Assembly (NCBI GenBank): GCA_963662175.1
Contig: OY759214.1
Span: 97,612,115-97,676,114, forward strand
Length of the DNA stretch: 64,000 nucleotides
Origin: Aradus depressus
Taxonomy: Eukaryota > Arthropoda > Insecta > Hemiptera > Aradidae
Reading direction: 5' to 3'
The translations under genes and the position numbers were made by a program. Below, in pieces: positions 3,185 through 54,110 of this stretch; the stretch's first letter is position 1, and each line of letters opens with the position of its first letter. Below the pieces are notes generated by a model. That model had not been told where the DNA came from, did no database searches, and saw only the letters and a program-made list of their open reading frames with translations.

Positions 3185-3188
3185 ACAT

Positions 3189-4519
3189 TGTAGCATGTCT
3201 ACCCTATAGATAATGCTCAGAACTGGCGATGTCTACGAGAGGATCGCGATCGCTAGGAGCAAAGTATGGGTTGTGTGGTGTTGAATAAACGAGAATTGCA
3301 TTTGGAAGAGAATGCTCGGAACCAATGATGCCTGCGAGAGAATCGCGATCGCTGGGAGCGAAAATAAAGAATAATAGAGACACAATGGAAAGGAAGCCAA
3401 GATAATTGTCTACATCCGGTGTATAAGGAATAAGCAGTAAAGGTTTTTTTTCTTACTCCAGGTTTTCACACAACTAGAGGCAGATGTTAATTGGTAATAT
3501 GCGATTGGCTGGAAATAAAATGGGCGGAGTCCGACGACGAATCAAGTCTCGAGAACTGTCCCCTACCACGGTCGGATATCGGAAGCCACTCCCCGTTTTA
3601 CTCATTCTTCGTTCATGTCTTGGGTGATCACCACGTATCTTTTCTATAAGTAATATCAGTTAGAATATGTGAAATTAACATTCTTCGTTCATGTCTTGGC
3701 TGGTCACCACGTTCTTTTTATATTGTACAGTTGAGTTTAAATATGTCAATTGAGTTTTCTTCGTTCATGTCTTGGCTGGTCACCACGTTCTTTTTATATT
3801 GTACAGTTGAGTTTAAATATGTCAATTGAGTTTTCTTCGTTCATGTCTTGGGTGATCACCACGTATCTTTTCTATAAGTAATATCAGTTTGAATATGTGA
3901 AATTAACATTCTTCGTTCATGTCTTGGGTGATCACCACGTATCTTTTCTATAAGTAATATCAGTTTGAATATGTGAATTAGTCGTAGAGACACACTTTGA
4001 TCTTGGACGGTGCAAAGTCAGTGGGGGTGTAACTTCTGGTGTGCCCTCGAAACTACGCAGATCTTCAGGGACTATGTGAATAGACGATTTCTACGGGAAG
4101 TCCAGAAAGGGTGATCACGCCGTCATTCGCCATGGATATCGTATCGAGGTACCTCGTAATTAAGTTATAATTCAGTCCTTCAGACACACGGCCAAATTAT
4201 ATATATTCAATTGTTGTTTTGTAAATATGTTCTCATTAAAATAAATATGTTAAAGTTATAGGTTTGATTCATTTCATTTCCCCCCCCACTCATGCTTCTT
4301 CTGGTTGACAACAGTAATTAATTATTGTTAATTACTGATGTCAACTAACCGTTAGGATCTTGTAACCGTTCTTCCCGTGGGAGTGCTTTCAGCTATTCAG
4401 GCATTGTTTAATTAAAGTCGCGATTTAAATAATTTTCAATTTAATAATTTTTCGATCTCAATTTTATTTATTTTATTAATTACGTGATTTGCACTCACAC
4501 AGGGAGAGAAATGGTTATA
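3189..4519 (+). repeat. 5' LTR
   Basis: It begins TGTAGC and ends GTTATA. Only two differences from the 3' LTR were seen by eye: G at 3574 against A at 8041, and A at 4507 against G at 8974. A polyadenylation-like AATAAA is at 4240-4245, and a TATATATA stretch lies near 4199. Two related blocks near 3210-3260 and 3313-3360 each contain the palindrome TCGCGATCGC. Confidence 0.93.
3605..3984 (+). repeat. 76-bp tandem array inside the 5' LTR (five units)
   Basis: Units start at 3605, 3681, 3757, 3833 and 3909, exactly 76 bp apart. Each begins TTCTTCGTTCATGTCTTGG. Two variants alternate as A-B-B-A-A: A has 'gtgatcaccacgtatc' and B has 'ctggtcaccacgttc'. The same array is at 8072-8451 in the 3' LTR. 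It lies upstream of the TATA-like and AATAAA signals, where U3 enhancers usually sit, so a regulatory role is possible but not shown. Confidence 0.92.
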
Positions 4520-4521
4520 AT

Positions 4522-7638: not shown

Positions 7639-7655
7639 ACGGGAACGGGGGATAT
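7639..7655 (+). other. polypurine tract
   Basis: The purine run ACGGGAACGGGGGA lies immediately upstream of the 3' LTR, where plus-strand DNA synthesis is primed in LTR elements. Confidence 0.8.
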
Positions 7656-8986
7656 TGTAGCATGTCTACCCTATAGATAATGCTCAGAACTGGCGATGTC
7701 TACGAGAGGATCGCGATCGCTAGGAGCAAAGTATGGGTTGTGTGGTGTTGAATAAACGAGAATTGCATTTGGAAGAGAATGCTCGGAACCAATGATGCCT
7801 GCGAGAGAATCGCGATCGCTGGGAGCGAAAATAAAGAATAATAGAGACACAATGGAAAGGAAGCCAAGATAATTGTCTACATCCGGTGTATAAGGAATAA
7901 GCAGTAAAGGTTTTTTTTCTTACTCCAGGTTTTCACACAACTAGAGGCAGATGTTAATTGGTAATATGCGATTGGCTGGAAATAAAATGGGCGGAGTCCG
8001 ACGACGAATCAAGTCTCGAGAACTGTCCCCTACCACGGTCAGATATCGGAAGCCACTCCCCGTTTTACTCATTCTTCGTTCATGTCTTGGGTGATCACCA
8101 CGTATCTTTTCTATAAGTAATATCAGTTAGAATATGTGAAATTAACATTCTTCGTTCATGTCTTGGCTGGTCACCACGTTCTTTTTATATTGTACAGTTG
8201 AGTTTAAATATGTCAATTGAGTTTTCTTCGTTCATGTCTTGGCTGGTCACCACGTTCTTTTTATATTGTACAGTTGAGTTTAAATATGTCAATTGAGTTT
8301 TCTTCGTTCATGTCTTGGGTGATCACCACGTATCTTTTCTATAAGTAATATCAGTTTGAATATGTGAAATTAACATTCTTCGTTCATGTCTTGGGTGATC
8401 ACCACGTATCTTTTCTATAAGTAATATCAGTTTGAATATGTGAATTAGTCGTAGAGACACACTTTGATCTTGGACGGTGCAAAGTCAGTGGGGGTGTAAC
8501 TTCTGGTGTGCCCTCGAAACTACGCAGATCTTCAGGGACTATGTGAATAGACGATTTCTACGGGAAGTCCAGAAAGGGTGATCACGCCGTCATTCGCCAT
8601 GGATATCGTATCGAGGTACCTCGTAATTAAGTTATAATTCAGTCCTTCAGACACACGGCCAAATTATATATATTCAATTGTTGTTTTGTAAATATGTTCT
8701 CATTAAAATAAATATGTTAAAGTTATAGGTTTGATTCATTTCATTTCCCCCCCCACTCATGCTTCTTCTGGTTGACAACAGTAATTAATTATTGTTAATT
8801 ACTGATGTCAACTAACCGTTAGGATCTTGTAACCGTTCTTCCCGTGGGAGTGCTTTCAGCTATTCAGGCATTGTTTAATTAAAGTCGCGATTTAAATAAT
8901 TTTCAATTTAATAATTTTTCGATCTCAATTTTATTTATTTTATTAATTACGTGATTTGCACTCACACAGGGAGGGAAATGGTTATA
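7656..8986 (+). repeat. 3' LTR
   Basis: Same length as the 5' LTR, with the same five-unit 76-bp array at 8072-8451. It ends GTTATA followed by the ACAT target duplication. Confidence 0.93.
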
Positions 8987-9036
8987 ACATATATATAAAC
9001 AAAATTGTCGAGACAGTAAATGTAACAAAAAAAATA

Positions 9037-10052: not shown

Positions 10053-10136
10053 GTTTCCCCATCTTAATATGAAGATGGCTGATGTAGTGAGAAGTGATTA
10101 TTTCGCAGGATGTCAAATATAAGGTCTGACCTCTCA

Positions 10137-10215
<79 letters not shown>

Positions 10216-10746
10216 CCGACTTAGGTCTCCCTCATCATCAGGCAGTCTACAAAAGAACCATCCTTAATATAGTATGTAATATAAATAGCAAATAAATAAT
10301 TAAAAACACAATTTTTGATAAAACATACCTGATAACAATTTTTTTATAAAACTAAACAATAAAAAAAAATAAATAACAATCTACAACAACAAACATTAAC
10401 AATTTAAAATATCATGGATGGGGACAGACGAGTTATTCCTGTCCACCATCTGAGTCACAACTGGGAGAACGGTGTACGTGAGACTGGACAAACCTCCCAT
10501 CCCCTCTCTAGAGTTGAGGAGGGGGGACTCTCTCTTCCTCCTTTCCAATTTGATTTCGATACTTTCCAACGTATCCATCTTTCTACTTTTTTTGGACATA
10601 ATGCAGTAACGAGACTGAACCGGCCTCATGTCCTGTGTTCTGGAGGTGTTGGAAAAATTCAGAGTCGCCCCTCCTCAAATGTTCCCTCAAATCTGTGAGA
10701 GGTCAGACTACCTTATATTTGACATCCTGCGAAAGTTTCCCCATCT
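10053..10746 (-). mobile_element. FBH-2 foldback element with internal cargo and 12-bp target duplication
   Basis: A perfect 12-bp duplication GTTTCCCCATCT lies at 10053-10064 and 10735-10746. Inside is a tail ('gaagatggctgatgtagtg'), then one arm (about 10101-10141) whose reverse complement ends the element (10691-10734). A 73-base T run interrupts the left arm. The ribozyme region at 10214-10246 is decayed: the GAAA block is lost, but the reverse complement still has CCTGATGATGAGG. About 450 bp of extra sequence sits between the arms; its minus strand has a 77-codon frame (10396-10629) that I do not recognise. Compare the compact copy at 50.4 kb. Confidence 0.82.
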
Positions 10747-11219: not shown

Positions 11220-11923
11220 ACAATCATAGAATATTCCAAAACATAATCGATCAACTGAATTTCGATTCCCTTAAGATCCCATAGCAATTTGAAGAACAAG
11301 ATAAACGAGCTGAAAAATTGGAATCTACTAGAAGGAACTTTATAACCAGCGCCTCATTACTTTTTTTTCCCCCATCTTCAGCTTATTAAAGAATCCTCTT
11401 GAAATTTTAACCGAAATAATTTCGATACTACAGTAAATGATTTTGCCCATTTAATAAAAAATGAAATCTGACCAATTATTTCTAATTACAAACAAAAAAC
11501 AATGACAGAAAGCTCATTTGTCCGAAGAAAGTGAAGCATGTTGAAATATTTTAAACTGAAGAACACAAGAAGAAATTCATCAAGTCGGAATTGGTTCCTT
11601 TTTAAATTTTTTCATTTCCAAAGTACCAATTTCAAAAGTTAATCTGTTAATCGTGAGATATTTCTTTATTAGTTTTCTCATACTCATCTTCACAGAACCA
11701 CTTTTATAACTATGATAACTGTTGACTGTTATAATAACATCGGAATAAGGGCCCAGGACAAATGAGCAGGAAGAATCGTGATTCTAGAAGCGTTTAAATG
11801 TTTAACCGAGACTCCTCGACAAAGGATCCTAAATATAAAATGCCACAATTCAGTCTGTCTTAATTCTATTTCAAATATCCAATATGTTCACAATGATTAA
11901 TAGAGTCGACAGTATCTTTTCAA
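11220..11923. other. no recognised feature; AT-rich
   Basis: AT-rich DNA without a long open frame and without matches to the repeats defined here. Confidence 0.4.
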
Positions 11924-11972
11924 TGTAGAAGGAATTTGAAGTTATGTCGTGTAAATAAAAAATTCAAAATTT

Positions 11973-12009
11973 GGCCAACGTTTCGGAATCTATTTCCTTC
12001 TTCAGGGCC
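11973..12009 (-). ncRNA. type I hammerhead ribozyme (FBH-4)
   Basis: On the minus strand the order is GGCC, CTGAAGA, one extra A, helix II (GGAA / TTCC), GAAA, helix III palindrome ACGT, U17, then GGCC. The outer GGCC strands pair as helix I. All conserved core residues of the CUGANGA...GAAA...UH consensus are present. Predicted cleavage is after the T preceding the final GGCC. Confidence 0.75.
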
Positions 12010-12648
12010 TACAGAATACAAACAACACATCCACTCAAATCATTATAAGGTAATTTTTATTTATTATCTATTTAGATATACAGGGTGTCCCAGCATGGAG
12101 GTAAAAAACTTTGAGGTCTTAAAGGAAATTTAATTTTGAACAAAACATTTCCTATAAACATAGGTCCGATTCGGAACCGTTTCAGAAATATTCAACATCT
12201 TCCAATTTTTGTACTTAGTACTATTTTTTAGCATAAAATATCTTATTCCTCCTTAAGTATAAGAGCTAACACAAATTTAATTATACCATCATAAAGAGCG
12301 GAAAATTACCTTTAAAATAAGTTCACTTTATTATTACAATTACAAGAATTTGACAGTTTATAGGCAGCATAAACCGAAGGACTGTGTAATTCGGAAATTC
12401 TTTGGCAAACTGTAGCTCACGTTTTTTCAAAAAAATGATTTTATTGTATATCTTAACTTTTATTTAGAAAACTTGTGCATTTAATAAGCTTTCGAACGAT
12501 AAAACACTATATTACATGACAAGGGTGTGAAAACCATAATATTGATACTTGTGTATCAATATGATGGTTTTAATGAAAAAAGAAGGTAAAAGTAAATGAC
12601 ATGTCTCATAATCCATACAGTGTTTACAATGAATTGAGGATTACTATA

Positions 12649-12996
12649 GGTTAGGTTAGGTTTTATGACTCATGCCCGGGCTTTAACAACGAGGTCATAT
12701 CGCCTACTACCAGAGCGCTCTTTCGTCACTCTGGTGGACATGAGCCCGACTTTACTGTGGGAGTCCTAAATTTTGCCTACCCTAAATTTTTATTCATCTA
12801 GGGTAGGGGTCTTTAACGAGTACCTGACATCGTACAGGCTCGGGACCATCGCTTAACGTCCCATCCGAAGGACGGCGTGCTTATGTTTATTTCACCTCCC
12901 AGATAAAATAAACTAAGGGCCTCGGTCGGGTTACGAACCCTCGACTTTGAGCTCAGAAGTCAAGCACGCATACCACTGAGCTACCGGCGCCCTCTG
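12649..12996 (-). mobile_element. SINE-A full-length, telomere-like tail, 11-bp target duplication
   Basis: The complete element has its head at 12996 and its tail at 12649. The head carries a B box, here 'gggttacgaacc' on the plus strand. The tail on the element's sense strand is AAAACCTAACCTAACC. The 11-bp duplication GGATTACTATA lies at 12638-12648 and 12997-13007. Confidence 0.9.
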
Positions 12997-13197
12997 GGAT
13001 TACTATATATATAGGTTATTTTATTACTACTTTCAAAATTTGTATTTATTTTTATTATTTATTTATCTATTATTATTATTATTTTTCTCTCCTTCTATTT
13101 ATGTAAAAAAATTGTTTCCATCTCTCTTTAACATTATTATTAAGTATCTGGTTATATCATTGTCCATAATGACTAATTCGTTTGTTTGTATTCTGTA

Positions 13198-13238
13198 GGC
13201 CATGAAGAAGAAAATAAATAGTTTCCGAAACGTTGTCC
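13198..13238 (+). ncRNA. decayed hammerhead (FBH-4 right arm)
   Basis: GGCC is followed by ATGAAGA (CTGAAGA in the sister arm), a weak helix II, then CCGAAACGTT and GTCC. The C3 and helix I changes should abolish activity. Confidence 0.55.
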
Positions 13239-13518
13239 AAATTTCGAATTTTCATTTACATGATAGAACCTCGAATTCCTTCTACATCCAAAATGTGTTT
13301 CACCAGAAAAGTGAAGAGGAGGAAAAATAGAAGAGAGAGAGCAAAAAAGAAAAATCTAGGAAGATAGGTAACAGAGGTAGCGAGTTGTGAGGAATGGTCA
13401 AAAATAATTGTTGCACAGGAAGAAAGTGGCATCGACTTGCTACGGCAGAGAAATGCAAAAAAACTATTTTTTTTTAATGAACTGTTGAACTGATTCACAA
13501 AGAATTTGTGTGTTACTA

Positions 13519-17470: not shown

Positions 17471-17605
17471 CTAGATTATAATTAGAGATGAATTCAAAAA
17501 CCCTAATAACTGTCGATGTAATGAATTTGTCGACAAAAAATTTAGTATGAGGATTGAAGAGCCCCTACGTAAGTCAGCTATTAAATTTTAGAACAAATAG
17601 TCAAC

Positions 17606-17819
17606 TAATAGAAATAAAAGACATTGTCTTCCCACTGTTTTATTACTATTAACTGGCGAGTTGTCTTCTAACCGCTGTGCTGTGTGGGTGGGATGAACCA
17701 CTGATGATGACGCTGTTGCGTCGAAAACCAGTTCTGGTCTAAAATAAAACAGTGGGAAGACAACGTCTTTTATTTCTATTATAAATCTCGTCCCACATCA
17801 TCTTACTATCACATATGAA
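17606..17819 (+). mobile_element. FBH-1 foldback element, one arm shortened
   Basis: It starts TAATAGAAATAAAAGAC and ends in the family tail 'cttactatcacatatgaa'. The left arm keeps about 40 bp and the right arm is complete. The flanks ATAGTCAAC (17597-17605) and ATATTCAAC (17820-17828) form a 9-bp duplication with one mismatch. They reconstruct an uninterrupted IR-1 sequence. Confidence 0.82.
17697..17738 (+). ncRNA. hammerhead ribozyme (FBH-1)
   Basis: ACCA, CTGATGA, extra T, helix II GACGC-TGTT-GCGTC, GAAA, helix III AACCAGTT (one change from palindrome), C17, TGGT. Helix I is ACCA/TGGT. All core residues are intact. Confidence 0.75.
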
Positions 17820-17886
17820 ATATTCAACTGGTTTTGGAGGGGGAGCGAAACTTTAATTGAATAAATCTTTATGGAAGAGTAAATTG

Positions 17887-18365: not shown

Positions 18366-19193
18366 ATTGTTTACTAGCAGGCTGACTGGCGTTGCCCGAG
18401 AGGAACTTTGCAACGTTACTTTATGTGCGATGCTTGCACAAAGTTTATATATAAGGAATGCCTATACCTTGCACAAAACTACCCTCATATTATATATGTT
18501 CTACAAAATTTTGAGATAACACAATCGACCCAAACATTTTTTTTGTTCTCAAATATGTATTTAAATATTCATTTTAAGTTTTTTTTTTTTTAAGTTTCAA
18601 AATATATACCTACTGCTTCTTCAAGATTTTAATTCCATCGTAAATTAATTCTGACGAATCTTCTTTCAGAATTTTATTATTTAACGATGGTTTTATCCTC
18701 GATTTCGAATAATTTTATTCTCGTAAAGTTCTCTAAAATTGACGAAATCTGCGAAATAATCAAAAGATAAAAATTGGTATTGGTGGGTATCGGTCTTCTC
18801 TCGCAAAAAGGGCTGATTTGATTTTATGTCCTCTTGGGCCTAGGATCAGACATAAGTTATTATGAGACATTCGAAATTTTGAATGAACTTATCAACTAGG
18901 TGTGCAATACATTCTGCTGTTTGCAAAAACTGAGCTCAGTCAGGCATATCTGTATAAAAAACTCAGTTATTGTTTTAATAATTATCAGTAACTTCTCACC
19001 TTGTATGTTCTTTATGAATATATAAATACTTTAAATGGATTTCAATTGAATTCAATGGATTCTTTCTGGCCTTTTTGTAGACAACAACAGCTGTGAATAT
19101 TTTTATCGAAAAAAAAGTCGACGTTTGTACGTTAGAACACTGAAAAAAACTAATAGAAATAAAAGACGTTGTCTTCCCACTGTTTTATTTTAT

Positions 19194-19235
19194 ACCAGAA
19201 CCGGTTTTCAACGCAACAGCGTCATCATCAGTGGT
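19194..19235 (-). ncRNA. hammerhead ribozyme, left arm of FBH-1
   Basis: Reverse complement of the right-arm ribozyme: helix I ACCA/TGGT, core CTGATGA and GAAA, helix III palindrome AACCGGTT. Confidence 0.75.
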
Positions 19236-19309
19236 TCATCCCACCCACACAGCACAGCGGTTGGAAGATAACTGGCCAGTTATGCCGCTGTGCTGTGTGG
19301 GTGGGATGA

Positions 19310-19351
19310 ACCACTGATGATGACGCTGTTGCGTTGAAAACCGGTTCTGGT
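19310..19351 (+). ncRNA. hammerhead ribozyme, right arm of FBH-1
   Basis: ACCA, CTGATGA, extra T, helix II GACGC-TGTT-GCGTT (a G-U closing pair), GAAA, helix III palindrome, C17, TGGT. Predicted cleavage is after C19347. The four-base-pair palindromic helix III has no loop, so it may cleave best as a dimer. That is known for other small animal hammerheads. Confidence 0.78.
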
Positions 19352-19720
19352 ATAAAATAAAACAGTGGGAAGACAACGTCTTTTATTTCTATTAGAAATC
19401 TCGTCCCACAACATCTTACTATCACATATGAATTGAAAAAAACGGCTCAAAAAAAAGTGGTGTCCGATGGTTAACCGAAAAGGGCTTCGCCCGGATTTTT
19501 ACATTTGAAATCGAAAAATTCTATTTTGCGCGAGAATTTTGTCTTTCAATGGATTTCAATGGGGATTTCGTTTTTCTGTGATTATTCCTCCGTGGTATGT
19601 TCGATTTCAGATTTTTTTAAATAGTAAACCATCGTCACCGTGTCCACTACCATCGTGACAAATTTCAATGTGATCGGTAAAGGGGTTTAGGAGGAGTACG
19701 AGTACAACGAAATACATGAG

Positions 19721-22250: not shown

Positions 22251-22392
22251 TAGACTGCCTGATGATGAGGGCAACCTCGAAAGCCGGCTAGCAAATATCA
22301 ATAAAATCTGTGAGAGATCAGACTATATTTTATTTTACAACCTGTGAAATAATCACTTCTAACTACATCAGCCATCTTCAGATTTTCCCATA
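22251..22392 (+). mobile_element. FBH-2 copy, left arm missing
   Basis: It retains the ribozyme, the right arm ('ctgtgagagatcagac'...'caacctgtgaaat') and the family tail 'catcagccatcttca'. The opposite arm is absent. A SINE-A 3' fragment follows directly. Confidence 0.75.
22256..22293 (+). ncRNA. hammerhead ribozyme (FBH-2)
   Basis: TGC, CTGATGA, extra T, helix II GAGG-GCAA-CCTC, GAAA, helix III palindrome AGCCGGCT, A17, GCA. Helix I is TGC/GCA. A at position 17 fits the H consensus. Confidence 0.75.
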
Positions 22393-26931: not shown

Positions 26932-27050
26932 TCATATGATAATATGAAAACTGACATTATTGCAGAGATATTGTGAAGTAATTCAAATGAACTTGAAAGA
27001 AATAAAACATGTTTATTTATGATATTGTCTAATTTCATCAACTATATTTA

Positions 27051-27090
27051 CATGGGAGTACTTTCGGTATTTCTACCATCCTCAGCCAAA
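27051..27090 (-). ncRNA. hammerhead ribozyme, FBH-3 left arm
   Basis: Reverse complement of the right-arm ribozyme with the same core (CTGAGGA, GGTA-GAAA-TACC, GAAA, AGTACT, C17). Confidence 0.7.
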
Positions 27091-27253
27091 AGTATAAGAG
27101 TGGGGACCGCCTTGTCATAAAATATCTCACAGCTTGACAATTTAGCTTAGTTAGGAATGTCTGACGTCATGGGGAACACCAGGGGGAGGAGGGTAAGGGG
27201 TTCCTCGAGAGGCTGACATTCTGTAATATTAACTTAGTCTTATCTCTTATGCT

Positions 27254-27293
27254 TTTGGCTGAGGATGGTAGAAATACCGAAAGTACTCCCATG
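27254..27293 (+). ncRNA. hammerhead ribozyme, FBH-3 right arm
   Basis: TTGG, CTGAGGA (N7 is G), extra T, helix II GGTA-GAAA-TACC, GAAA, helix III palindrome AGTACT, C17, CCA. Helix I is short (TGG/CCA). Predicted cleavage is after C27288. Confidence 0.72.
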
Positions 27294-27366
27294 TAACTAT
27301 AGTTGGTGAAATTAGACAATATCATAAATAAACAAGTTTTATTTCTTTCAAGTTCATATGATAATA

Positions 27367-30250: not shown

Positions 30251-30779
30251 AAAAAATTCAAAAATCTTATATACCTATATACATATGTTTTTATAATAAA
30301 AAAGGATGCAGGTGGGAAGGCAGGTAGTGGAAGGTACCATGCTTCAAGTGTCACACGAATTAAATTTATTCAAACTCGGTTTGTATGTTTAATTAGTGCA
30401 TAATTACATTGAGCATATGCTGCCACGAGCCGGGGCTACGCCAATGGCGCGGAATGATAAGACCCGACATTTGGTCGACGCACTTGGACCGCCACTCAGG
30501 AAATGATTACTGATGAATTTTATTATTTATTTTTTTTTTCTTCGTTCTAAAAGTTCATCCAGTTGGAACAAACAAGTCAATACATATTCAAAAGCGAAAT
30601 TTTAATTATATTACAAAAATATTACATTTTGCATAAACTGTAACTGCATCTGCAAATGGATATCTACATTAATAAACATGAAATGGGCTTTGTCTGTTTG
30701 TTTGTTCCTACATCACTCCAAAACGGCTGGACGGATTTTCATGAAACTTCACATGTAGCATCCTTTTGAGACCGGTTAG
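30251..30779. other. mostly unrecognised; end of an arthropod-type repeat
   Basis: From about 30660 the text 'tctgtttgtttgttcctac' and 'acggattttcatgaaactt' resembles a widespread unclassified arthropod repeat. The FBH-1 copy is inserted in it. Confidence 0.35.
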
Positions 30780-30830
30780 TAAATAGACTAATAGAAATAA
30801 AAGACGTTGTCTTCCCACTGTTTTATTTAT

Positions 30831-30872
30831 ACCAGAACCGGTTTTCGACGCAACAGCGTCATCATCAGTGGT
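30831..30872 (-). ncRNA. hammerhead ribozyme, FBH-1 left arm
   Basis: Perfect complement of the right-arm ribozyme; all core residues are present on the minus strand. Confidence 0.78.
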
Positions 30873-30932
30873 TCATCCCACCACACAGCACAGCGGTTGG
30901 AAGATAACTGGCTGTGCTGTGTGGTGGGATGA

Positions 30933-30974
30933 ACCACTGATGATGACGCTGTTGCGTCGAAAACCGGTTCTGGT
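30933..30974 (+). ncRNA. hammerhead ribozyme, FBH-1 right arm
   Basis: ACCA, CTGATGA, extra T, helix II GACGC-TGTT-GCGTC (five Watson-Crick pairs), GAAA, helix III palindrome AACCGGTT, C17, TGGT. Predicted cleavage is after C30970. This is the best-preserved ribozyme in the window. A natural hammerhead with an extra base at the same place (after A9) is known in a viroid, so the extra T need not inactivate it. Confidence 0.8.
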
Positions 30975-31076
30975 ATAAATAAAACAGTGGGAAGACAACG
31001 TCTTTTATTTCTATTAGAAATCTAGTCCCACAACATCTTACTATCACATATGAATAAATAGACTCTTCTCGGGTGT

Positions 31077-31665
31077 ATGACGTCACATCCTGGACACCTA
31101 CTGACGTGATAATCAAGTACCTTGGAGTACATTTCGACACTAGACTGACATGGAAGACACACATACTTACATAGAAAACTATCACAACTGTACCCACTAC
31201 TGAACAGACGTAGGTATACTACTCAGACACAAATGCTGCACACTACTCTACACAGCCTTGTTACGACCACTCATCACCTATGCATCACCCATTTGGCAAG
31301 GAGCAAGCAAAACTCATCTAGACAATCTTCGAAGGTTTGAAAACAAGGTCCTTCGTTTGGCAGTGGACGCATCTAGGTTTGTCCGGAGTCAGCAGATCCG
31401 AAGGGAAGTGGACATCTCGGCTTTCATCACCAAACTGACCCTAGACTACGATGAAAACCTCGTCCTGGTGCCTGGAGCCCAGTTCTACAAATTGGGAGAA
31501 CCAACACCAGATAGGAGGCTCAAACCTCGTCTCTATCAACATTTTGTTAATTATCTATAAACTTTTGTAATTTAAATGTTACCTTTTCATTCTGAAAGTT
31601 TTCAATTTTTTGTATAGCACCAACTTGTGCTGAACCAATAAAACTATTTTTATTTTATTTTTTTT
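31077..31665 (+). pseudogene. Jockey-type LINE, 5'-truncated, 11-bp target duplication
   Basis: The text reads 'KYLGVHFDTRLTWKTH', a broken stretch, then an open frame 31258-31560 with 'YASPIWQGASK' and 'LRRFENKVLRLAV'. These are the C-terminal motifs of Jockey-clade reverse transcriptases. A 3' UTR ends 'caataaaactatttt' with an A/T tail. The duplication TTCTCGGGTGT is at 31066-31076 and 31666-31676, exactly 600 bp apart. Catalytic motifs are absent through 5' truncation. Confidence 0.9.
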
Positions 31666-38625: not shown

Positions 38626-39151
38626 CAGGGGCGTGCCCAGGATTTTATTTCGGGGGGAGATAACATACATATATGTGTGTATACATAGTTAATTGTTTTA
38701 GGGTCATTACAAAATTAATTCAAGTCTTCAAGCTTTTGATTGTGCAATATTGTTTAAAACTGTTTCAGGGTCTAGATGAATGTCTCTGTGCATTGACATC
38801 AGAGCTAATCCATTCAATCTGTTTTGGCTAGTACTGTTTCTGAAATAGCTTTTCATACGTCTAAGGGTTGAGAAAGACCGTTCAGTTGTTGCTCCAATTT
38901 TCAAAAACCTGTGAATTGTTGGGAAAAAGTTCTTGTCACATTGTTTTAGGCTCAAAATAAAATATTTTCGAACTGCTTTCTCTGCCCAAGGTCAAGCTTC
39001 ACCAGGATCCGCACGAACTCTAGTAGGAAAATGTGTTATGCCAATAAAATATTCCATGCAAGTAAAAATAGTTTTATTATTTACAAAAAGGATAATTTTT
39101 TTTTTCATTTTGGGGGATTGATGCCCCACATCCCCCCTAGGTACGCCCTTG
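38626..39151 (-). mobile_element. hAT transposon, internal deletion derivative, 8-bp target duplication
   Basis: The left end CAGGGGCGTGCCCAGG and the inverted right end 'cctaggtacgcccttg' are hAT-type termini. The duplication TCAGAAAC is at 38618-38625 and 39152-39159. At 526 bp it retains only the transposase C-terminus, so it is non-autonomous. Confidence 0.92.
38728..38955 (-). pseudogene. hAT transposase C-terminal dimerisation domain
   Basis: The 75-codon frame has 'NFFPTIHRFLKIGATTERSF', then 'STLRRMKSYFRNS' and 'RLNGLALMSMHRD'. These are diagnostic of the hAT dimerisation region. Compared with usual family members, about six residues are missing just before the ATTERS block. No catalytic DDE or zinc-finger part remains. 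Confidence 0.9.
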
Positions 39152-41644: not shown

Positions 41645-42085
41645 AATTTCACTTCCCAATATAGGAGAAGTTATGTAATCTACCAAAAATTCGATGTGTT
41701 TTCACCATAATTTCATGTTATCCGACCCCCTGATACCAAAAATTTTTAAAAATACGTCTGTGAACAAGAATAATCTTGATAGATTGAATGCATCAAACCA
41801 AAATTTTATATATGCATTCTGAACCCCATGAGGACTACACCTATTAATTTTCAGCTTAAATGGCCAAGGGAAAATGGAGGCTTTAGAAGAGAAAGGAGGG
41901 GTGGTTATCGCAAAAACCCTAATAACTGCCGATATAATGAATGTATCTGCACACAATTTAGTATGAGAATTCAAAAGTCAACTATTGATTTTTAGCCCAA
42001 ACTGACTATTAGTTTTGGAGGAAGAGCGAAAATATTGTTGATTAATTTGTGCTGGGGAAGTAGATTGCAAGTGATTCACTTGTCA
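41645..42085 (+). mobile_element. IR-1, full-span short copy
   Basis: It starts 'ataggagaagttatgtaat', passes through two monomers and ends 'ctggggaagtagattgcaag'. Confidence 0.8.
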
Positions 42086-42172
42086 CTATCTTACAACCTG
42101 AAATAATGGCTTCTCACTACAACGATCATTTTCATGTTACCTGTTTAGAACCTTTTTCACGTATACTATGGG

Positions 42173-42680
42173 GGTGGCCCATGGCGGTGGCCGTGCAGAC
42201 TAGAGGGTAGGGCTTTGGTCTCACCATGGTTTGCGGGTTCGAATCCCACCCGGGGTGTGAGTTTTATTTCGTAGATAGAACTCCATCCCGGGGCCATGGT
42301 GGCCGTGCGGACTAGAGCGTAGTTCTTTGGTCTCACCATGGTTTGCGAGTTCGTATCCCGTCCGGGAGTGAGTTTTACTTCATAGATAGAACTCCCTCCC
42401 GGGGCCATGGTGGCCGTGCGGACTAGAGCGTAGTGCTTTGGTCTCACCATGGTTTGCGAGTTCGTATCCCGTCCGAGAGTGAGTTTTACTTCATAGATAG
42501 AACTCCCTCCCGGGGCCATGGTGGCCGTGCGGACTAGAGCGTAGTTCTTTGGTCTCACCATGGTTTGCGGGTTCGAATCTCGTCCGGGAGTGAGTTTTAT
42601 TTCGTAGATAGAACTCCCTGCCGGTGCCATGGTGGCCGTGCGGGTTAGAGCGTAGTGCTTTGGTCTCACCATGGTTTGCA
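42173..42680 (+). repeat. SINE-B head tandem array, five units of 111 bp
   Basis: Unit starts (GCCATGGTGGCCGTGCGG) are at 42293, 42404, 42515 and 42626, each 111 bp apart, after a more diverged first unit at about 42180. Each unit holds the tRNA-like head, B box and body up to 'ctccctcccgggg'. Because 111 is divisible by three, the minus strand stays open for 168 codons (42166-42672). That frame is a by-product of the array, not a gene. Confidence 0.92.
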
Positions 42681-42886
42681 GGTTTTTTTTTTTTTTGCTT
42701 TATGCACGATGCATATTAGCCACTGTGTTATGCCAGTGTGTTATCTAGTTATTTACTACATCCATGGCCCTGGGAGGGAAAACGAAATAAAACTCACTCC
42801 CGGACGGGATTCGAACCCACAAACCGTGGTGAGACCATGCGACCAAAACCCTACGCTGTAGCCCGCACGGCCACCACGGTCCCTGA
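42681..42886 (-). mobile_element. SINE-B, inverted copy abutting the array
   Basis: The T run at about 42680-42691 is this copy's poly(A) tail. 'ggattcgaaccc' is its B box, and the head ends at 42886. It faces the tandem units, so the locus could form a large hairpin. Confidence 0.85.
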
Positions 42887-50330: not shown

Positions 50331-50416
50331 AATTCGAACAGTGAACTGCAGTTGGAGAAAATTTATGCTTCAGACAATTCAGCCAAAGAGAAGAGGCAAA
50401 AACTGTTAAAACTTCA

Positions 50417-50687
50417 CAGGTTGTCAAATAAAATGTAGTATGACCTCTCACAGATTTTTATTAAAAGTAGCTAGCCGAATTTTTTTTTAACTTTTTACAA
50501 TTTAATATATTTATTTTTGTTGCCTTTATATTATATTAAGGATGGTTTCTTTTGTAGACTGCCTGATGATTAGGGAAACCTCGAAAGCCGGCTAGCAACT
50601 TCTAATAAAAATTTGTGAGAGGTCATACTACATTTTATTTGACAACCTGTGAAATAATCACTTCTCACTACATCAGCCATCTTCATA
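50417..50687 (+). mobile_element. FBH-2 foldback element, compact, 7-11 bp target duplication
   Basis: Left arm (about 50415-50477) and right arm (about 50588-50651) are inverted copies. A one-sided tail follows ('aaataatcacttctcac' to 'catcttcat'). TTAAAACTTCA occurs at 50406-50416 and 50688-50698. Part of that may be the element's own end, so the true duplication is 7-11 bp. Only the right arm keeps a full ribozyme. Confidence 0.85.
50560..50597 (+). ncRNA. hammerhead ribozyme (FBH-2)
   Basis: TGC, CTGATGA, then helix II AGG-GAAA-CCT with a mismatched closing pair, GAAA, helix III palindrome AGCCGGCT, A17, GCA. Helix II is weaker than in the 22.3-kb copy. Confidence 0.68.
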
Positions 50688-50945
50688 TTAAAACTTCAGT
50701 TTTGAGACGAAATTTCATATTAATTTCCATTCAAATGGTATAGGGGGCTCAACTCAAAAAAAACTTAAACTGCCAATATAATGAATGTATCGGCAAAAAA
50801 TTTAGTATGAGGATTCAGAAGCCGCTATGTAAGGTAAATAACGAGTTTTAACTCAAACAGCAGTTTTGACGGGAGAGCGAAAACATAGTTGGTTAATTCG
50901 TACTGGGGAAGTAAATTGCGGGTGATTCACCAAGGAATTTTTTTC

Positions 50946-51520: not shown

Positions 51521-51950
51521 AAAAGGCATAACACATTTATTTTAAACTTAAAACCGGAAGGTTTAAAAATGTATATATATATATATATGTCTAAAAAAAA
51601 ATGTCTAAAAAAAAAGGTCAGGGTAACTGAAAGGCCGTAGAAATCCAACTGGAAATCCAAAATCCTTCACCATATGCCAGTTACCATATGTTCTCCAGAA
51701 ACACTACACCGTACCGAATGTGGCACTTGCAGGTTACGGTACTGGAACCTTGCCTGGTATCTATAGAGTTCTGTAAGTAGATATAATCGCAGGGGTACAT
51801 GAATTAGAATTAATCAATTTATTCAATCTGATTTTACTTCACCAGGTCTATGAAGTCTTGCGGAAGTTATTTAATTGGTCAGAAATTCGATGTTGATTTT
51901 TTAACGGAATTTCATGTTTTCCGAACCCCAAAGAATGTCCTGTCTAAAAA
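51521..51950 (+). mobile_element. mostly unrecognised; IR-1 left end at the right side
   Basis: 51839-51950 is an IR-1 left end ('cttgcggaagttatttaat', 'acggaatttcatgttttcc'). A short TA microsatellite is at 51572-51588. The rest is not recognised. Confidence 0.5.
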
Positions 51951-52230
51951 TAAAGAAAACGTATGTTTTTTAAAAAATATTGTCTATTTCACAGATAATA
52001 TATAATGTGGGAGTACTTTCGGTATTGCTACCATCTTCAGCCACGACTTAACAAATACTAAATTGAAGTTCAACTAGGTAGTTTTGATGACTGACACACC
52101 CCTAGAGATGCGCGACTCATGACTACACCTACCGGAAGCCTTTAGTACCACGGATTCCATCAAAAACTTTATTTTTATCAAGTGTTTCACAATATCTCTG
52201 CAAAACTGTTAGATATCACTATGTCCTGTC
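51951..52230 (-). mobile_element. FBH-3 derivative, rearranged
   Basis: It retains one hammerhead arm (52007-52060) and the FBH-3 tail ('tttcacaatatctctgcaa' at 52187-52206). The second arm is missing and another inverted repeat begins between them. Confidence 0.6.
52007..52044 (-). ncRNA. hammerhead ribozyme (FBH-3 derivative)
   Basis: Minus strand: GTGG, CTGAAGA, extra T, helix II GGTA-GCAA-TACC, GAAA, helix III palindrome AGTACT, C17, CCAC. Helix I GTGG/CCAC is four full pairs, better than in the 27-kb copy. Confidence 0.75.
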
Positions 52231-52605
52231 TATCTGTTTGTGTGATTGGTACGGAAACCATCTTCCACCATGTATATCGCCAAGTCCCAGCCCCAGAACC
52301 TGTTGGTGAAAAAACATGTGGATTTATCTCGGGTCCTTAACCATTCAAGACCTTAAGGCTTTGCCAAAATGGTACTACGGGAGGTGGATGTTTTCCAAGT
52401 GGCACAGCCAACTGAGGTTGGATTCGTAGTGGCGGTGGTTGCTGGGGCCACCATTGAACGCCAGTTCTGGCTGGATGCAATGTTGGAACTAGTGCGAAAT
52501 AGTAGGTTTCCCGCGCCTTTCCTTTTTGATGGGATCCGTGGTGCTAAAGGCTTCCGGTAGGTGTAGCCATGAGTCGCACATCTCTAGGGGTGTGTCAGTC
52601 GTCAA
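52083..52605. repeat. inverted repeat, arms about 80 bp around 355 bp
   Basis: The left arm 52083-52166 ('gactgacacacccctagag', 'taccggaagcctttag') pairs with 52522-52605 ('ctaaaggcttccggta', 'ctctaggggtgtgtcagtc') at roughly 90% identity. The space between holds the FBH-3 tail and a GC-richer block with a 63-codon frame (52369-52560). No ribozyme core lies in these arms. Confidence 0.8.
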
Positions 52606-53095
52606 ATGCGCTGTCTGTGTATATATGATATGATAACTATTAATAGATTGAATATATCGACACAAAATTTTATAAGTAGCTAACTTAGAAACTCCATTAG
52701 GACGTTCTATAAATTTTCAACAAAATCGGCCGAAAGGAAGACGGCTTTAGGAGAGGGGGCTTAGCTCAAAAAAATAATAACTGTCTATTATTGACCAATC
52801 TCTATCTCTTTTACCTTCGGCAATTTCCCTTCATATCTGTTGATGTCTTCCCTAATGGGTCCGAAATCGATATAAAATTGATTGTCGATACGTCATTACA
52901 TGAGCAATTATTATGGTTTCAATACGGTTGACAGTTGATGGGAGTCGTTTATAGGGGGTTTTGGCTTCACAGACACACAGACAGACAATTTTTTTTTTGA
53001 GTCAGAGGGTCGTAAAACATGGATAAAGACAACATCGAATTTCTCCCTGACTACAAAATTTCTTTTATACATCGTATAGTTGGGGATGTAAATAA
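52606..53095. mobile_element. IR-1 pieces in both orientations
   Basis: A plus part (52640-52780) is followed by a minus part (52800-53090) ending at 'catcgtatagttggggatg'. Confidence 0.7.
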
Positions 53096-53684
53096 AACCT
53101 GAATGTGCCTTTGATTGCTTATTTATTCGACCTTTCATCCCCTTTTCAAAAAAACGCACATAGTTTGAATCTCTTCTAACAGAAATTCCTCATCGTTAAC
53201 TGAAAAAAATAAAAGTAGGGATTAGAAAAAAAGGCTGTTAAATCCAAACCAACAAAAAATGAGAGATTATTTGTCTAGAGTAATTATTGAAGAAAGTTGC
53301 TACAAAAGGAAGATTTTATTTTATTATCAGGTTGCCTATGCTAACAGATTAACAGCTAATAAAGTCAAGTTAATGTTACCACAAGTAACAGTGTAACTAC
53401 CTGTTATCCCAGTAGCTGTTTTTTGTCTATAACAAGAACACACTGATTTATTAGAGCTAGTAAAAAGTGAGTACTACAGTGGTAATTATTTTGGTAGCTG
53501 GGCGGCGGTATTCTGTTACTTCTGTGTATCTTCCATGTTTGTCTTCCATGTGTGGCTTCCATGTCAGTCTAGTGTAAAATTTATGTTGAATCCGTTCGTT
53601 CTTCGAAGAGTGGAAAAAATTGGTGAATGTTTCAGCGTGTTTATTCTGTGATTCCAACTGTTGAACTAGTCAATCACATGAACC
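53096..53684. other. no recognised feature
   Basis: AT-rich DNA, with a 66-codon minus frame (53457-53657) that I do not recognise. Confidence 0.35.
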
Positions 53685-53828
53685 TCAGGATGTTGAGCTC
53701 CCACTGCTGATGACACATCTGGATCCTGGGATGCAAGCAGAATGCCATCAGCATATTTAGCCAACAGTTTGTTGGGGGTAACTGCCATGTCGTGGCAGTA
53801 CAAGTTAAAAAGGATGGGACTCAAAACT
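53685..53828 (-). pseudogene. non-LTR reverse transcriptase fragment, catalytic box mutated
   Basis: The minus strand reads 'GVLSPILFNLYCHDM' and 'KYADGILLASQDPDVS' in one frame. These are the conserved RT block and the catalytic FADD/YADD box, here YADG. The second aspartate is lost through one base change, so it cannot be active. It is a short fragment, related to Jockey/LINE reverse transcriptases, with no other RT motif around it. Confidence 0.85.
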
Positions 53829-54110
53829 CCGGATTTGATGAGTTTGAGTTTATTCTCATCTGGCAGTTTCTTGCTATAATCTTGTGCGAGGAGCTGATGT
53901 TCACTGAAGTTTGTGAGCCGTCATGCCATACTTCGTCGAAAGTAGAATTCAAAAACGGGCTGCTGAATTCTGTTTACCTTCGAAACATCGGGTGAAATTC
54001 ACTCTTTGCAGCTGATGCACAGTCGAGTGCTTAGCGCGAAACTGAATTGATGTCGCAATAGTATTTATGTTTGAATTTGAAAGGGTGTTTGCAGGTTCAA
54101 TTCATCTCTC
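53829..54110. other. no recognised feature
   Basis: A 67-codon frame (53792-53995) shows nothing known. Confidence 0.35.

Follow-up and report, generated by a model that had tools for sequence, protein, structure and literature searches.

We examined a 64,000-nucleotide stretch of the Aradus depressus genome (GenBank assembly GCA_963662175.1, contig OY759214.1, forward-strand positions 97,612,115 to 97,676,114; hereafter the window, whose first letter is position 1). A palindrome at 30780-31064, insertion A, consists of a head-to-head pair of arms resembling the pseudo-long terminal repeats (pLTRs) of Penelope-like elements (PLEs), with a minimal PLE-type hammerhead motif, one tail and a target duplication. 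Insertion A is an inverted, pLTR-only PLE copy, an arrangement of a known kind. It is probably the footprint of one PLE insertion, in which the arms were doubled anew by two-sided target-primed reverse transcription. Its parts are as follows:

30780..30789, no strand: target duplication TAAATAGACT, left copy, whose last two bases also fit the arm
30788..30894, minus strand (sense on the minus strand): untailed arm
30831..30872, minus strand: minimal hammerhead of the left arm, first core base C3 at 30868
30895..30910, no strand: loop of 16 nt
30911..31017, plus strand: tailed arm
30933..30974, plus strand: minimal hammerhead of the right arm, with stem I of 4 bp, C3 at 30937 and stem II of 5 bp
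30962-30969, plus strand: helix III of the right arm, the palindrome AACCGGTT, with a predicted cut after C30970
31018..31054, plus strand: one-sided tail of 37 nt, 5% G, containing CACAACATC
31055..31064, no strand: target duplication, right copy

The arms of insertion A are 107 nt each, 100% complementary and 16 nt apart. The insertion is 267 bp long (30788-31054), or 265 bp if the CT that it has in common with the duplication is assigned to the duplication. The duplication is perfect over 10 bp, and its score was matched by none of 150 controls with displaced boundaries. A preliminary description of this DNA had reported perfectly complementary 107-bp arms, a 16-nt loop, a one-sided tail of about 38 bp and a perfect 10-bp target duplication, and all of these were borne out, the tail lying on the right side only. 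When insertion A was aligned with two relatives in the window (insertions B and C), the loop proved to belong to the left arm as its inner end; the right arm is ~18 nt shorter. As a single strand, 30780-31064 folds at -212.3 kcal/mol, versus a mean of -62.2 kcal/mol for 200 shuffled sequences. Folding of a single arm (30911-31000) was not unusual, as 22 of 200 shuffles folded equally well or better.

The window contains six insertions with inverted arms and a seventh, k52. They form three sequence families, one comprising A, B and C, a second F2 and k52, and a third F3a and F3b; the families differ in sequence and carry the same kind of motif. The insertions other than A are:

19141..19443, plus strand: insertion B with duplications TGAAAAAAAC; element 19150-19433; arms 19150-19258 and 19287-19395; apex ATAACTGG/CCAGTTAT; tail 19396 to ~19433
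17595..17829, plus strand: insertion C with duplication AAATAGTCAACT/AAATATTCAACT (one mismatch); element 17604-17820; left arm ~41 bp, right arm full; hammerhead with helix III AACCAGTT; tail 17782 to ~17819
26932..27366, minus strand: insertion F2 with duplication TCATATGATAATA; element 26946-27361; arms 26983-27100 and 27244-27361; tail at the left end
50406..50698, plus strand: insertion F3a with duplication TTAAAACTTCA; element 50413-50689; left arm 50413-50482, right arm to 50653; tail to ~50689
10053..10746, minus strand: insertion F3b with duplication GTTTCCCCATCT; element 10067-10733; tail at the left end (~10067-10103); arms 10101-10143 and 10689-10734
51935..52232, minus strand: insertion k52 with duplication ATGTCCTGTCTA; element 51947-52220; untailed arm with hammerhead C3 at 52040; right side, ~52167-52220, a short arm piece plus tail

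The arms align as inverted repeats in six of the seven insertions. The second arm of k52 is little more than tail, and its two sides share only ~11 nt before the tail; we infer that k52 is also an inverted pair. Solo or stub copies at 22259, 38176, 42087, 23770, 57124 and 20500 stand outside these counts, as does a pair of arms at 11917-12025 and 13182-13293.

All seven insertions are flanked by a target duplication of 10-13 bp, with one mismatch in C. Among 3000 random placements, the comparison made for A, B, C, F2, F3a and F3b, the duplication score reached 9 in 0.9%. With 150 displaced-boundary controls per locus, the observed score was reached by none at six loci and by two at B, where the duplication is A-rich. 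Each insertion also has exactly one tail, of 36-45 nt with boundaries set by eye. If the ends were chosen independently, one tail would arise with a chance of at most 1/2 per locus, giving at most 0.008 for seven loci and at most 0.016 for six; since k52 was recognized partly through its tail, six is the safer number. The tails of all three families align and contain 3-12% G, and the motif CAC(A/T)A(C/T)ATC is present in six of the seven insertions and, with one mismatch, in the seventh, C; the solo copies F3c and k42 also have it. A passage of PMC8969392 lists inverted pLTRs and short 3′ extensions among the peculiarities of PLEs, and minimal PLE hammerheads are reported in parts of PMC7761336 and PMC6155905. 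The tail, the minimal hammerhead, the inverted arms and the 10-13-bp duplications, together with this published anatomy and the inverted pLTRs and tails of PLEs in PMC3846280 and PMC11167929, support the earlier suggestion of a link between insertion A and Penelope-like pLTRs with a one-sided extension.

The outer ends of the arms agree in A, B and C at three different targets, with CTATTAG at the untailed end and ACATATGAA at the tailed end. The inner ends vary: the right arm of A is ~18 nt short, the left arm of C is 41 nt long, the left arm of F3a is 70 bp and the right arm of F3b is 46 bp, with the right arm of k52 shorter than the latter. Measured from the first hammerhead core base, the proximal end lies at 80-81 nt in A, B and C, 90 in F3a, 93 in k52 and 94-102 in F2 (for C and F3a as mapped on the tailed arm), and the distal end at 117-119 nt in A, B and C, 126 in F3a and 139 in F2. 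Fixed outer ends with variable inner ends are expected if both arms start at the outside and are cut short toward the 5′ end of an RNA.

Differences between related insertions are mostly mirrored in the two arms. Over 109 columns, A and B differ at three positions mirrored in both arms and at none that is unmirrored. F3a and F3b, compared over 47 columns, show four mirrored and seven unmirrored differences; two of the latter are end trimming and the other five come down, by our own count, to two events, one substitution and one 3-nt gap. The mirrored differences indicate that the arms were copied from one template at each insertion or were homogenized later. As the arms of C, F2 and F3a have diverged, steady homogenization is disfavored.

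This pattern is consistent with a pathway in which a PLE enzyme would make staggered cuts, 10-13 nt apart, in the two target strands. The two freed 3′ ends would each prime reverse transcription, with the 5′ portion of a PLE-type RNA as template. One complementary DNA (cDNA) would begin at a proximal site, ~80-100 nt past the first hammerhead core base, and the other at a distal site, ~117-139 nt past it. Both cDNAs would reach the 5′ end of the RNA or stop short, and joining of their ends would produce the inverted arms. The tail would be the stretch between the proximal and distal start sites, and priming by both staggered 3′ ends would generate the duplications directly. The hammerhead would be part of the template RNA, as a transcript of the whole hairpin would lock it in a 107-bp duplex. 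We infer this mechanism of arm formation from good local evidence, and we favor two-sided target-primed reverse transcription both over movement of the hairpin as a unit resembling a miniature inverted-repeat transposable element (MITE) and over published self-priming.

In twin priming by LINE-1, a long interspersed nuclear element (LINE), the other target strand also serves as a primer, for a second cDNA from the same kind of RNA, and an inversion results. Unlike in LINE-1 twin priming, both cDNAs here would start at nearly the same internal place, making the arms inverted repeats. A literature search found no paper on Penelope twin-priming (one human review contains both terms), which does not exclude priority elsewhere. 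The pattern described here bears on published models of PLE integration. Its components, namely outer ends that are fixed, inner ends that vary, arms that mirror each other and a single tail, can be counted in any animal genome. Possibly, two-sided target-primed reverse transcription is obligatory in endonuclease-bearing PLEs, the complex being organized to start one cDNA distally and the other proximally. Inverted pLTRs with a single tail would then be the normal signature and no oddity, a generalization to which we give slightly less than an even chance.

Several parts of the proposed pathway have counterparts in PAc, a Poseidon PLE of Anolis carolinensis. According to PMC11167929 (2024), both target strands are cut and extended, and reverse transcription begins most often 111-118 nt into the open reading frame (ORF), in an AC-rich stem-loop. 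The PAc tail, of 30-40 bp, is the stretch between two adjacent reverse transcription start sites, and later integration steps are described there as yet to be validated. PAc has in common with the pathway proposed here two start sites that bound the tail and the cutting and extension of both target strands, and with the insertions a minimal hammerhead, in PAc at the start of the ORF. However, the PAc results are in vitro work on one protein, and the PAc ORF starts in stem II, which the open frames in the window do not support. A term search of the main text of PMC11167929 returned "inverted" once, in a 3′ inverted dT block, and neither "palindrom" nor "hairpin".

Other observations weigh against our interpretation. 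No PLE domain was found in the 10 of 90 open fragments of at least 75 amino acids that were scanned against Pfam. The only reverse transcriptase match among these 10 was to RVT_1 (PF00078; E 0.0085, below cut-off) at 53669-53920, which by eye is LINE-like. None of A, B and C has a frame that stays open from the arm through the end of the tail, and the PAc layout, with an ORF starting in stem II, was not seen. Their direct source is therefore not a coding PLE mRNA laid out like that of PAc; a non-coding relative moved in trans is a possible one. In the in vitro work of PMC11167929, PAc start sites did not appear to differ between strands, which leaves the one-tail rule without a counterpart there. 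One pair within the window also does not fit the rule. A list of inverted repeats (33 rows; arms of at least 30 bp, less than 1500 bp apart) contained one further hammerhead-bearing pair, that at 11917-12025 and 13182-13293, for which no duplication was found and no tail was seen. This pair represents a fourth family; its arms are 84% identical and 1.16 kb apart, and the hammerhead of one arm has ACGT as helix III. Lastly, A, B and C have one apex in common, ATAACTGG/CCAGTTAT or a close variant, implying either that the 5′ end of the template RNA is fixed there or that a hairpin was inherited.

Several findings on the ribozyme belong on the same side. The preliminary description had placed a full type I hammerhead in each arm. 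The core (CTGATGA...GAAA) and stem II are indeed present on both strands of insertion A, but helix III is the loopless palindrome AACCGGTT, so that a dimer should be needed, and Rfam gave no match. Rfam hammerhead families failed to match 30600-31260 at E values up to 10, and the hammerhead models had no match across the whole window at gathering scores; by the covariance-search test that the preliminary description itself set, the ribozyme claim would fall. The 16 weak Rfam matches in 30600-31260 were to 14 microRNA models (which scored the palindrome), one small nucleolar RNA and one bacterial antisense RNA, all under their gathering scores.

A descriptor of PLE-type hammerheads, composed after the motifs had been seen, required CTGANGA, no more than one spare base, a stem II of 4 bp or longer, GAA, a palindromic helix III of 4-10 nt running from A to T, an H base at the cleavage position and a stem I of 2 bp or longer. 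In the window, nine sites at six loci fit this descriptor (the two arms each of A, B and F2, together with F3c at 22259, k52 and k12), and 60 first-order Markov sequences, each of 64 kb, yielded no hit; the motifs of C, F3a and F3b do not satisfy it. Helix III is palindromic in every family, though its sequence differs (AACCGGTT, AGCCGGCT, AGTACT and ACGT). When six motifs were cofolded, a double hammerhead homodimer was predicted for k52 only. For A and B, stem II was kept and ACCGG paired with CUGGU, with no double hammerhead; for F3c, the intermolecular helix III formed and stem II did not; and F2 and k12 gave other dimer folds, the k12 monomer being predicted with exactly stems I and II. 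Lunse, Weinberg and Breaker reportedly described in 2017 small PLE hammerhead variants that cleave as dimers. The ribozyme here is known in kind, "full type I hammerhead" is too strong a claim, and from the motif we retain a weaker one, a putative dimer-type PLE hammerhead. The motifs in the window resemble the minimal PLE hammerheads of the passages cited above (PMC7761336, PMC6155905) in that their type I core is minimal and no looped helix III is present. In an exact-pattern search, neither ribozyme nor tail had a match in viral contigs, and the ribozyme had none in genome contigs.

One alternative, close to the preliminary description, is that the hairpin itself is a non-autonomous, MITE-like family, with a transcript of the whole palindrome copied from the tail through both arms by a PLE enzyme. 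Although the common apex of A, B and C would suit such a family, and copying from a single start would keep the tail on one side, as seen, we consider this unlikely. Movement as a unit is unsupported by the mirrored differences (three of three between A and B; four versus two unmirrored events between F3a and F3b), which would need homogenization at every move, and by the often unequal arms, which differ greatly in F3a, F3b, C and k52. In addition, such a transcript, folded into a hairpin of -212 kcal/mol, would serve poorly as a template.

Still more doubtful is snap-back self-priming on an antisense PLE transcript, hypothesized for Penelope elements of Adineta vaga in a passage of PMC3846280 (2013). 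As we read it, self-priming would fix the inner joint and leave the outer ends free, the opposite of what is observed, and would give no reason for a tail restricted to one side, even though it accounts for identical arms, head-to-head order and palindromic apices, of which that of B is nearly perfect. PMC3846280 also describes palindromes at inverted joints of A. vaga Penelope and unrelated sequences captured between solo pLTRs with duplications. In these palindromic inverted joints, captured sequence and duplications, the A. vaga element Pen2a_Av resembles the insertions in the window. However, Pen2a_Av has an ORF and direct pLTRs as well, whereas insertion A has two inverted arms only, and compared with self-priming, the data from the window favor starts at the outer ends.

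It is very improbable that we are dealing with a class II fold-back transposon or a transposase-dependent MITE in which the hammerhead is incidental. Long terminal inverted repeats and target duplications would be expected of such an element, but the duplications vary from 10 to 13 bp instead of having a fixed length, the arms are often unequal, and the termini are unlike, one end carrying an extra 36-45 nt. The plan and the hammerhead-like motif are common to three families, and the sole transposase match among the 10 fragments scanned is a hAT piece (PF05699, above cut-off, 38731-38991) ~8 kb away.

Least probable of all is a retrozyme or an assembly artifact from a palindromic read. Perfect palindromes can arise in sequencing, but the duplications and one-sided tails recur at seven loci, several with diverged arms. 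Non-long terminal repeat retrozymes, in the parts of PMC7229834 and PMC7761336 that treat them, are tandem repeats moving via circular RNA; insertion A is like them in its type I hammerhead core inside a non-coding repeat and perhaps in mobilization by PLEs, but unlike them in that direct repeats are absent from 30600-31260.

Some insertions and stubs have further features. The spacer of k52 includes 84 bp (52083-52166) with an inverted copy, 94% identical, ~300 bp outside the insertion (52523-52606). Under two-sided target-primed reverse transcription, this piece was likely copied from neighboring DNA as filler where the two cDNAs were joined. In F3b, a run of more than 70 T (A on the sense strand) at 10141-10213, between the hammerhead and the arm end, occupies the position of a short AATAAAA-like stretch in its relatives. 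The stub at 42087-42139, very short at ~53 bp, consists of an F3 arm end and tail alone; a 10-bp repeat, TTTCATGTTA, at 41711 and 42130 is an uncertain candidate for its duplication.

The window as a whole has a eukaryotic appearance: it contains seven open frames of at least 120 amino acids and many dispersed repeats, and no tRNA was found in it. A direct duplication of 1334 bp, 99.85% identical (3187-4520 and 7654-8987), has internal tandem repeats of ~76 bp. A repeat of ~345 bp has at least seven nearly full copies, at 12646-12990, 13651, 16758, 26073, 28509, 43925 and 49322. On the minus strand, 42169-42699 is an open frame of a tandem peptide repeat that matches PF25077 (DUF7800) above cut-off.
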